Of a stretch of 64,000 bases of DNA, positions 55,901 through 61,900 are shown piece after piece (the first letter of the stretch is position 1; the number at the start of each line of letters is the position of its first letter). Position numbers and translations under genes: made by a program. The stretch is from Paenibacillus sp. IHBB 10380. Its GTDB lineage: Bacteria; Bacillota; Bacilli; Paenibacillales; Paenibacillaceae. The stretch covers positions 248,001-312,000 of the forward strand of contig NZ_CP010976.1 of assembly GCF_000949425.1 (NCBI RefSeq), given 5' to 3'. Under the pieces are notes generated by a model. It was not told the origin of the DNA. It made no database searches and saw only the letters and a program-made list of their open reading frames with translations.

Positions 55901-58900
55901 TCCGTAGTTGTTCATTAAACGACAAGGTGTATCGCGAATATCTTGAAGAAGTGAAGTACAATAGCATCGCTGCATTCGAAAATCAGGATTATCCGTTCGA
56001 ATTACTTGTGGACCAACTGAATATACGGAGAGATATCAGCCGAAATCCATTGTTTGATACGATGTTCATTCTGCAAAATATGGATATTCAATTATCATCC
56101 AGAGTAGATGTTACATTCAGACCGATTGAAAGGAATCTGGGCGTGTCACCATACGATCTGACCTTAAGCGCTGAGGACTGGAACGATCAATGTATTACGC
56201 TCCATCTGGACTACAGTACAAAGTTATTTAAGGAAGAAAAAATCGAACGGATGCTAACCCATTACGTGAATATTGTGAATAGTGTAGTAGATAACGTAGA
56301 TGTGCACATTTCACAGATTCATATGTTAACTGAAGAAGAACAACAACAGTTGCTATTTGATTTCAACGATACAGAACTTCTGTATGACAAACACCAGACG
56401 ATCCATCAATTGTTTCAACTTCAAGTTGAACGTACACCAGATGAAATTGCTATTGAAAGCGGCAGTAAGCAATACTCCTACAATGACTTAGATGTAAGAT
56501 CCAACCAATTGGCAGCAGCTCTTCGTGAGCAAGGGGTATTGCCGGGAACCGTTGTGGGTGTAATGGTTAAGAGATCAATCGATATGATTGTCGCTTTGTT
56601 AGGCGTATTGAAAGCTGGGGGCGCCTATTTACCAATTGATCCTGATTATCCAGTGAATCGGATCGAATACATGTTGACAGATAGTGCTGCACAAATTTTA
56701 CTTACGCAATCAGATTTGATTGATCAAGTTGAATGTAATGCGAGAAAAATATGTATTCATGATGACAACTTATACACGAAAGAGATCGATAACACGCGAT
56801 TTCAAATGAACAACGCCGACCATATTGCATATGTCATTTATACGTCTGGCTCAACAGGTAATCCCAAAGGGGTGATGATTACCCATCAAGCAGTGCACAA
56901 TTTTATCAATGCGATGTGTAAAATAATTGATTTTACGCCTGGAAAAACAATACTAGGGCTGACGACGATCTCTTTCGATATTTTTGTTCTTGAAACTTGG
57001 GTGCCGTTGACGAAGGGATTAAAAGTAGTCATTGCAGATGAAATAGAACAGATGGACCCCAAAGCACTACATCAGCTCATTACTAATCACAACGTGGAGA
57101 TGTTACAAATTACGCCATCTCGTTTGAAAATGCTAATGGCGGACGATCCGGTAATGACTTTTCTCGAAAAAGTAACCGACATTATGGTCGGTGGAGAGCC
57201 TCTACCTATTCATTTAATGAAAAGGTTAAAAAGTTATGCACACTTACGGATTTACAATATGTATGGCCCGACGGAGACCACGGTATGGTCTTGTGTGAGC
57301 GATTTAACATTTAAAAATAATGTAGACATCGGTCATCCTATTGCGAATACGCAAATTTACATTGTTGACACAGATAATCAACTCGTACCGATCGGTGTAC
57401 CGGGAGAGTTGTGTATTGCGGGAGACGGTTTAGCTGCAGGTTATTGGAAACGAGAAGATTTAACGGAACAGAAATTCGTCGATAATCCACATGTTCAAGG
57501 GTACAAAATGTATCGCACAGGGGATATGGCGAAATGGAGAGAAGATGGCTCCGTTGAGTATTTAGGAAGAACAGACCTTCAGGTTAAAATCCGCGGATAT
57601 CGGATCGAGTTAGAAGAAATTGAAAAAATGATGATTAAGCAATTATCGGTTCAAGAAGCAGTTGTGGTAGCCAAAGAGGATGAAGATGGCAACAGTTATT
57701 TATGTGCATACTTTGTGCCAGAGGGAGAGACGGAGCTGGGTCAAATAAGGGACAACCTGTTACAGGTGTTACCAGAATATATGGTACCTTCTTACTTTAT
57801 TCCGCTTGAGCAGATGCCGTTAACACCGAATGGGAAAATTGATAAAAAGGTGTTGCCGAATCCGGAAATAAGCTATTCCAGTATTACTGTATATGTGCCA
57901 CCACGCGATGCAATAGAAGAACAATTAGTAACCATATGGCAGGAGGAATTAGCTCTTGATCAGGTCGGAATAAACGACAACTTTTTTGAACGAGGAGGGC
58001 ACTCCTTAAAAGCGACAATAATGAGAGTAAGGATGAATAAGGAATTTGGAGTTGATATACCATTGAGGGGGATCTTTCAATATCCTACGATCAAGGGAAT
58101 ATCCGAACTGCTTCAGCGCATGGATCAAAAGATACACATAGAAATTCCGGTTGTAGAGAAACGGGAGTATTATGGTGTGTCAGCAGCTCAAAAACGATTG
58201 TTCATATTGGATCAAATGAATGCTACTAATACATCGTATAACATGACAGCGGCCTTTGAAATACAGGGAGAATTGAATATTGGTAAATTGGAAAACACCT
58301 TCAATACAATGATGCAACGGCATGATGCATTCCGAACATCATTTAAGATTGTAGACGGTGAGCCGGTACAAATCATTCACTCTGATATCGAGTTTAAGCT
58401 CGAGGACTACGGAAAAGTAAAGAGCACTGAACTGAAACGCCTTACAGAACAATTTATTACTCCATTTGATTTAAGTGTAGCTCCGTTATTTCGGGCAAGT
58501 TTGGCTCAACTAAATGAACAGCATTATGTGTTGTTTATCGACATGCATCATATTATTTCAGATGGTACATCTGTAGGTTTGTTCATTGATGAGTTTAACG
58601 CCCTGTATAGCGGTAGTGAACTTCCTGAACTATCGATTCAATACAAGGACTATGCGGCATGGCATAATGAACGATTTGTTCAAGGCGTTTACGAAGAACA
58701 GAAACAATATTGGATGGGTAAATTTGCAGGGGAGCTTCCAGTGTTAAACATGCCAACTGATTTCCAGAGACCTCAACGGCATAGTTTCGATGGGGGTAAG
58801 GTTGAGTTCATCATTCCAAGTGGACTTTCGTCCAAGTTAAAGAAGTTAGCAGGAGAGACAGAAACAACACTGTATATGATTTTACTAGCTGGATATAGCA

Positions 58901-61900
58901 TCTTATTATCCAAGTATTCAGGACAAGAGGATGTCATTGTAGGTTCCGCCGTAGCTGGAAGAGATCATACTGATCTACAGCAAATGATGGGGATATTCGT
59001 AAACACGCTTGCGATGAGAAGTAAGCCAGAAGGTGGAAAGAGCTTCCGTTCCTATTTAGAGGAAGTAAAAGAAACGTGCATGAACGCTTATGAGCATCAG
59101 CAGTATCCATTTGAGAATTTGGTAGAGGCACTTGCGATTCCGAGAGATTTAAGTCGCAGTCCACTATTTGACGTTATGTTAACAATGCAAAATGCGAGTG
59201 TGGAATCATTCCAAATGGAAGGATTAACGGTCAATCCGTATCCATTAGAGCAACAATCGACAAAATTTGATATATCACTACTTGCAGAAGTACTCGCAGA
59301 TGAGATTCGCCTGGAATTTGTATACTGTTCTAACCTATTTACAAGCGAAACCATGCAACGGTTTGCTCAGCACTTTGTCAATGTACTCCATGTTGTATCA
59401 GAACAGAGCGAGCTTACCTTGGCAGATATCTCACTTCTATCTAATGAGGAGAAGGTTCAATACCTCGCTTTAAATGATAGTACAGACGCTAGAAGGCAAC
59501 CGAAATTCAGTACAGTGGTCGAATGGTTTGAAGATCAAGTCAAACGTTCGCCTGATCGAATCGCTCTCGTATATGGGGAAGAAAGATGGACCTTCTCTGA
59601 ACTGAATTCTAAGGCTAATCAGCTTGCGAGAATGATGATTGAGAATGGTTTCATGGAAGGTTGCGGTATTGCTGGAATCGTTATGGAGAACCGTCCGGAG
59701 ACGATTGCGGCCTTGTTGGCTACGTTAAAAACGGGCGGAGCTTATCTACCTATAGATCCGGAGTTCCCAATTGAACGGGTCGAATATATGCTCAACAATA
59801 GTGGCTCCCGATACTTATTAACGTATGAACAACATTTAGATCAGGTGGGGTCAACGATTCAGGTATATTTGCTAGATCGTTTAAAAGCATATGAAGGACA
59901 TGGCCATAACTTAAATATTCAAGTGAAAGAACATGATCTTGCCTATGTGATTTACACGTCAGGAACGACAGGTATACCTAAGGGTGTCATGCTCGAACAC
60001 CAGAATGTTGTTAATTACATTCACTGGTTTACCTCGACATACGAGATTAATAGTAGCGATAAGACGATACTTCTCTCATCTGCCAGTTTTGATCTTTGTT
60101 ATACCGCTTTATATCCTGCACTTGTCAGTGGTTGTGAATTGCATATGCTCGACCGACATGATTATGTAGATCCTGAATGTGTGCTGAATTATATTTCATC
60201 TTGTGAAATTACCTTTCTTAAGGCTACACCCTCCTTATTCCATATTATGGTGAACCATGAGCGATTTAAGACGAGAGATCTATTGGATTCATTGAAACTT
60301 ATCGTTCTTGGAGGGGAAAAGATCAAGGTTCAGGATATCGAGCAATATTATGAACAATATCCACACACAATGTTTGTGAACCATTATGGACCAACCGAAG
60401 CGACAATCGGGTGTGTTGCTCATTCAATAGATTTGGTTGGATTCAAAGCATTTCACCAGCAGCCTGTAATCGGGAAACCGATATTTAATACACGAGCTTA
60501 CATTGTTGATGCCTACGGCAACCCGCTACCAGATGGTGTTCCAGGAGAGCTTGTTATCGCTGGAAATGGACTTGCGCGGGGGTATATAAATCAAAGTGAA
60601 CTTACAAAACAAAAATTTGTCCAATTCCCGTTTAAATCTGGAGAGAGGGTATATAAAACAGGAGATCGGGTCAAGAAATTACCGAATGGGGACATTGAGT
60701 TTATTGGAAGAATAGATCAACAAGTCAAAATCAGAGGTTACCGAGTAGAGCCGGCTGAGATAGAAGCACATGTAAAGACGTATTCAAATGTTCAGGAATC
60801 CGTACTGATGGTCAAAGAAAGCGATGGTACAAAGTACTTGTGTGCTTATATTGTCACGCAGCATGCTCTAAGCGCCGCTGAGGTCCGGAATTATTTGGCG
60901 ACACGGTTACCCCATTATATGCTACCTGCGGCTTTCGTTTTCCTTGGTCAAATGCCTTTGAACGAGAACGGGAAAGTAGATTATAAAGCGTTGCCGGAGC
61001 CCCTTACAAACATTGAGTCTTCAGAATCATACTCAGCCCCTGTCAACGATATCGAGGAAGCGTTGGTGCAAGTATGGGAGGATACATTAGGTGTTAAGGG
61101 AATTGGGACAGATCATCATTTCTTCGAATATGGTGGGGATTCAATCAAAGCATTGCAAATCTCTTCTCGGTTAATGGCGTATGGTCTGAAGATGGAAATG
61201 AGAGACTTATTTAAATACCCTAGAATTAGAGAGTTAAGTAGGTATGTCCAACCATCCACCAGCGAAATAAGTCAAGAATTGGTGACAGGTAAAGTGGAGT
61301 TAACTCCAATTCAATATCGGTTGTTTGAGCAAAAGTGGGAGCATGTAGGCCATTACAATCATTCCCTCATGTTGTATAAACCCGAAGGTTTTGAGGCGGA
61401 GCTGTTAACACAATCATTTGCCCATATGGTTGAGCATCATGATGCTCTGAGGATGAGCTTTAGCAAAGGAGATAACAGTGTAGTACAGTTCAACCAAGGG
61501 CTAGAAGGACACACGTTTTTTAAATTAGAAGTCATTGATTTTACAGGGAAAGACGATTATCGAGCTGATATTGAGCAACAATCGGCAAGGCTACAAGCTG
61601 GATTGAATATCGAGCAAGGTCCACTTATCCAATTAGTTTTGTATCGTACAGATATCGGTGATTATTTGCTTATTATTATTCACCATCTTGTGATAGACGG
61701 TGTATCTTGGCGGTTTATTCTGGAAGACTTCACGATGATCTATAAGCAATTACTTGAACAGAAAACGATTAAACTTCCTGCGAAGACGAATTCCTTCAGT
61801 GATTGGTCAAAGCGTCTTGCGAAGTATTCAGTAAGTAAAGCGTTGCTGAATGAAACAAAGTATTGGAGTCAAGTAGAGCAGACAAATACGGTAGAATTGC

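Follow-up and report, generated by a model that had tools for sequence, protein, structure and literature searches.

A predicted Gly-D-Asp beta-amino fatty acid lipopeptide from a Paenibacillus assembly line without a thioesterase domain

Which compound is made by an assembly line that begins like an iturin synthetase and continues with other amino acid codes, and how is that compound released? The question is raised by a stretch of 64,000 nucleotides from Paenibacillus sp. IHBB 10380 (contig NZ_CP010976.1, positions 248,001 to 312,000 of the forward strand), here called the window. It carries gene A, a hybrid polyketide synthase/nonribosomal peptide synthetase (PKS/NRPS) gene encoding 5270 amino acids (open reading frame 46891-62703; + strand, as are all features given in window coordinates). 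Gene A and the two synthetase genes that follow, B and C, total seven modules in a 2+2+3 split, and gene C ends without a thioesterase domain. The predicted product is beta-amino fatty acid-Gly-D-Asp-Dab-D-Dab-Val-Leu-Val/Ile (Dab, 2,4-diaminobutyrate). We consider it reasonably probable that this is a complete PKS/NRPS line of iturin-type design working in full as proposed below.

The starter and the first two residues

The preliminary description of this locus had placed two full adenylation (A) domains between 56390 and 61010, noted a terminal epimerase, and had read the codes DILQMGMVWK and DLTKVGHIGK from the A domains. All three domains lie in the single open reading frame of gene A, and both codes were reproduced letter for letter in two ways, from the core motifs and with a script that moves the code positions via pairwise alignment. 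The first code belongs to A1 (56413-57837; PF00501 and PF13193), with D235 near 56977 and the A10 lysine near 57835, and predicts Gly; DILQLGMIWK is listed for Gly in a survey that covers 2051 A domains (PMC12283262). The second belongs to A2 (59500-60990, approximate ends; the second PF00501 stretch, with code and core motifs), its first and last positions lying near 60091 and 60973, and predicts Asp. The epimerization (E) domain that follows (61288-62652; PF00668, motif HHLVIDG, E clade in the tree) is predicted to epimerize residue 2. As a control, the same script reads the Asn code DLTKIGEVGK first in 63 of 120 listed homologues, including annotated bacillomycin D synthetases.

The codes are more than a chance reading: of the A domains elsewhere in this genome 47 were read, and neither gene A code turned up in them. 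Of the 120 homologues listed (1455 candidates scored, 1358 matches), 13 have the Gly-Asp pair again, and it is also present in eight loci among the 80 kept of 141 named loci; both counts admit the first-code variants DILQVGMVYK and DILQLGMVWK (pattern DILQ[MLV]GMV[WY]K). The loci belong to P. glacialis, P. woosongensis, P. bouchesdurhonensis, P. pinihumi, Paenibacillus sp. JJ-100, P. faecis, P. arenosi and P. assamensis. Three of the 100 genus genomes searched have the pair as well. Relatives that share the starter carry other pairs (DVGEIGSIDK and DSWDIGLIGK in Brevibacillus, Gly and a Ser-like code in Chengkuizengella), and the first two positions therefore vary between related lines.

The part of gene A that precedes A1 explains the comparison with iturins. 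From Pfam matches and motifs, the gene encodes an acyl ligase (AL), an acyl carrier protein (ACP), a ketosynthase (KS), a second ACP, an aminotransferase (AMT), a starter condensation (C) domain, an A remnant and a peptidyl carrier protein (PCP), followed by C-A1-PCP-C-A2-PCP-E. The AL domain (47014-48177) matches PF00501 over residues 42-429. The KS domain (48964-50082; PF00109/PF02801) has its active-site DTACSSSL at 49474, and the AMT core (51643-52626; PF00202, 186 bits) has the lysine motif GKVVGGG near 52330. The starter C domain (52924-54240; PF00668) clusters with the bacillomycin starter C (tree support 100/100). On the 5' side of gene A lies a FabD-like malonyl-CoA acyltransferase gene (45661-46872; PF00698; TIGR00128 at 306.5 bits, cut-off 260.9), the product of which, presumably comparable to ItuD/FenF, probably works in trans on the KS module. 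The synthetases of iturin, bacillomycin and mycosubtilin have in common an AL-ACP-KS-ACP-AMT-C-PCP start with a trans malonyltransferase, and their AMT and starter C domains are homologous to those of gene A.

The start beta-amino fatty acid-Gly-D-Asp, proposed earlier, is thus borne out by the AMT-type starter, the two codes and the E domain after the Asp module. So is the contrast then drawn with iturins, whose peptides open with Asn followed by D-Tyr, whereas the codes here are Gly and Asp. Iturins also have seven modules, as here, but their chirality pattern is LDDLLDL, whereas the present line, in which modules 2 and 4 alone are followed by E domains, would give (Gly)-D-L-D-L-L-L. The 2+2+3 split and the A remnant in the loading part further set the line apart. 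This remnant, found by domain comparison between the starter C domain and the first PCP (54274-54770), is the C-terminal part of an A domain only and is not present in bacillomycin D synthetase A (P0050).

Residues 3 to 7

Gene B (2589 amino acids) begins at 62777, runs to the window end at 64000 and terminates at L024:6546 in the adjoining sequence. Its layout is C-A3-PCP-C-A4-PCP-E, and both A domains have the code DIWEMTADDK. Gene C (L024:6564-17591, beyond the window; 3675 amino acids) comprises three C-A-PCP modules and a terminal domain of the condensation superfamily. Its codes, DAFWIGGTFK, DAWFIGNVVK and DVFWIGGSFK in order, we assign to Val, Leu and a Val-like residue. Both E domains have an intact HHxxxDG motif, and so do the starter and elongation C domains encoded by genes A-C, nine in all. 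In the tree, the C domains with which genes B and C open share one clade, separate from the elongation C domains of the line. Gene C is followed by a gene for a major facilitator superfamily (MFS) exporter (L024:17588-18871) and by ectB, encoding a diaminobutyrate-2-oxoglutarate transaminase (L025:5926-7188). Two genomes of the genus sample (G023 and G079) repeat all seven modules, two of the codes being changed by one letter, and the gene order A-B-C-MFS-ectB; among named species, P. glacialis (strain DSM 22343) has the line closest to this one.

Two observations suggest that residues 3 and 4 are Dab. The near-identical code DIWELTADDK sits at the colinear DABA5 position of an occidiofungin-type cluster, and the Dab transaminase gene lies near gene C in all three complete clusters read, adjoining the MFS gene each time. 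The occidiofungin-type cluster is found on a Burkholderia arboris replicon, which is the best tblastn place for A3 among plasmids (48%); at the DNA level, no near match came from the plasmid collection. The B. arboris codes read, in order, Ser, aromatic-type, DIWELTADDK, DIWQLIADSK, Asn-type and Ser, and the gaps after the second and third A domains are wider, as E domains would make them. The occidiofungin order is Ser3-BHY4-DABA5-Gly6-Asn7-Ser8 (BHY, beta-hydroxy-Tyr), residue 5 being D-DABA by Marfey analysis (PMC10897925). Furthermore, DVWQMIGDDK, which equals the A3/A4 code in six of ten letters, is given under Dab in its hydroxylated form (PMC12283262). The only TIGR02407 match of the genome at 1e-60 falls inside the cluster. 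In the genus sample ectB occurs in all three cluster genomes versus 11 of the 97 others (Fisher p 0.002); since the three clusters are orthologs, this link does not count as independent evidence. No paper naming DIWEMTADDK or near codes was found, a zero that weighs little as some tables lay outside the searched text.

Release of the product

Bacillus iturin-type lines end in a thioesterase: in B. spizizenii PF00975 matches some 30 kb downstream of the AMT, and in B. velezensis, given the presumed identity of the contig, it matches where a terminal thioesterase would be expected. In contrast, the terminal domain of gene C has SHTIFDY in place of HHxxxDG, and there is no PF00975 match from C1:100846 to C1:1466690. 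Relatives of this domain were found in 20 proteins, 19 of which have SHxxFD (19 of 21 hits); PF00975 is absent from the precomputed domains of all 20. In the tree the terminal domains form a clade of their own (support 100/100), apart from E domains. Across ten aligned relatives S-H-x-x-F-D is invariant, so the second, catalytic histidine of the motif and its aspartate are kept. A further candidate relative, P0143 from Streptomyces (E 3e-18), was rejected as spurious, with 24% query cover and no motif.

The terminal domain most likely closes the ring in place of a thioesterase, a reading that draws on its position, motif and clade. Terminal condensation (CT) cyclases are likewise C-superfamily domains in the thioesterase place, and here too the catalytic histidine is kept. 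The fungal CT domains and the bacterial HtmB2-CT, going by the titles of PDB entries 5dij, 5ejd and 8z0q, share the C-superfamily fold and likewise stand last in their lines, and in fungal C3 domains a serine replaces the first motif histidine (PMC5457498), as in the SHxxFD domain. The thermoactinoamide synthetase ThdAB is a bacterial NRPS that makes a cyclic peptide, likewise without a thioesterase (PMC7253712); unlike the line described here, it ends in an E domain, has no lipid starter and makes a hexapeptide.

The biosynthesis may then be pictured as follows. The AL domain would load a fatty acid, which the KS domain and the trans malonyltransferase would lengthen by two carbons, and the AMT domain would convert the resulting beta-keto group to an amine. 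The peptide would begin with Gly and D-Asp (gene A), continue with Dab and D-Dab (gene B) and finish with Val, Leu and either Val or Ile (gene C), with Dab provided by the neighbouring EctB transaminase. The terminal SHxxFDY domain, replacing the thioesterase, would join Val7 to the beta-amine of the fatty acid, and the product would be exported by the neighbouring MFS protein. For the cyclic product with Val7, the computed [M+H]+ values are 895.598, 909.613, 923.629 and 937.645 for C13 to C16. With one Asp against two predicted Dab, the product would be weakly cationic.

It is a tentative extension, to which we give slightly less than even chances, that bacterial SHxxFD terminal macrocyclases replaced the thioesterase in a Paenibacillus/Chengkuizengella branch of iturin-type lines, and that the products of this line are the first Gly-D-Asp-Dab-D-Dab-Val-Leu-Val beta-amino-fatty-acid macrolactams. 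Predicted lipopeptides with new compositions are numerous, and a thioesterase-free end kept across an iturin-type branch is more surprising than the composition. If the prediction is true, a weakly cationic class joins the beta-amino fatty acid lipopeptides, hitherto mainly iturins and paenilipoheptins. The terminal domain would also be a compact, testable case of bacterial ring closure without a thioesterase, an issue raised for thermoactinoamide (PMC7253712).

Alternative readings and related lines

Several points weigh against the proposed structure. The most serious alternative, though an unlikely one, keeps the line and its residues and assigns release to another enzyme or to hydrolysis: the product would be linear, or a thioesterase from another locus would cyclize it, the terminal domain being a degenerate epimerase or a C domain without a cyclizing role. 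The first histidine and the glycine of the motif are indeed lost, a profile search of the PDB and Foldseek both place E domains at the top (a single-sequence PDB search gave no useful match), and the fold does not tell cyclizing domains from others of the superfamily. Three free-standing thioesterase-like genes (frames of 238-258 amino acids) also lie elsewhere in the genome. Against this stand the retained second histidine and aspartate, the clade distinct from E, and the pairing with the starter, which looks kept since 11 of the 20 relatives apparently share a contig with an AMT-starter protein or locus. Basic or polar residues other than Dab at positions 3 and 4 (Lys, Orn, Dap or Ser-like) are improbable given the DABA5 position, the hydroxylated-Dab code and the ectB gene in every complete cluster. 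Code predictions do err, however: for paenilipoheptin A a predicted Dab was Lys, a predicted Val was Ala and one E domain was thought inactive (PMC11959601), and for the related Burkholderia line the published prediction at this position was Ser rather than Dab (PMC4906002). The genus genomes G091 and G062 carry DIWE[IL]TADDK with no TIGR02407 match at 1e-150; of six non-family genomes with such codes, two have a dat-family match over the cut-off, one has a partial hit and three have none at 1e-80. The occidiofungin order in B. arboris is read from codes, that compound being the presumed product of the strain, and DIWQLIADSK matches no Gly code known to us. Finally, the A2 code leaves some room for Asn because DLTKVGHVGK, mostly an Asp code, is sometimes reported for Asn (PMC12283262).

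The other two alternatives concern the product class. The preliminary description had suggested an acidic lipopeptide that might bind calcium, and the D-Asp at position 2 agrees with this. Calcium-dependent lipopeptides have an Asp-X-Asp-Gly core motif. The line has one Asp code in seven, beside two predicted Dab, and lacks that order, which makes a calcium-dependent product very improbable. Also very improbable is that the product is simply an iturin, or one of the Paenibacillus lipopeptides already known, such as paenilipoheptin or paenilarvin: the homologous AL-ACP-KS-ACP-AMT-C starter, with AMT regions 55-70% identical to those of other lines, and the bacillomycin-like starter C point that way, but the first code is Gly, not Asn, the genes split 2+2+3, the thioesterase is missing, and codes and module count already contradict it. 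The nearest described Paenibacillus compound is paenilipoheptin. Paenilipoheptins A and B have a beta-amino fatty acid, seven residues and a ring on the beta-amine (PMC11959601, PMC11959586), as predicted here; they differ from the present line in sequence (Ser-Lys-Trp-Ala-Phe/Leu-Tyr-Glu/Dab) and in modules (PhnC-D-E, 1+1+5). Bracidin, a heptapeptide of MW 926 considered for its mass, differs in composition (Ser-Val-Val-Ala-Ser-Asn-Ala), and the paenidepsins have 12 residues and a hydroxy fatty acid.

The suggestion of a possibly undescribed class agrees with the literature searched, by codes and residue strings (e.g. Asp-Dab-Dab) among others, in which no described product turned up, most subscription literature and MIBiG lying outside that scope. 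Of the NRPS/PKS/bacteriocin clusters counted in PMC11210098, 8 in P. glacialis DSM 22343 are unknown and 0 known (Table 2), and in P. pinihumi 19 are unknown and 1 is known; these counts fit an undescribed cluster without naming it. As P. glacialis DSM 22343 is a culture-collection strain and exact masses are given, the prediction is readily checkable.

Related starter lines with codes ending in DSWDIGLIGK are widespread (99 and 76 member sequences), and a P. polymyxa terminal protein carries an SHIIFDA domain (74 members); the proteins concerned are P0062 and P0138 from P. polymyxa and P0018 from Brevibacillus. Codes of the form DIWE[MLI]T[AT]DDK also occur in Kroppenstedtia, P. pabuli, metagenome-assembled genomes of Thiotrichaceae and Herpetosiphonaceae, and two genus genomes lacking the cluster (L093, L115, L157, L158, L163, L164, L168). 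The IHBB 10380 genome holds a second AMT-starter line at C1:2198449-2215900 (L064, L065), its AMT region 69% identical and its codes DAKDLGVVDK, DSTFVAEVVK and DFWNIGMVHK; the first two are also found in P. glacialis and at least six other loci. A very large NRPS region occupies C1:1650000-1744000 (L059-L063), with 25 A domains read and stop codons inside C-domain matches near C1:1720982-1722284.

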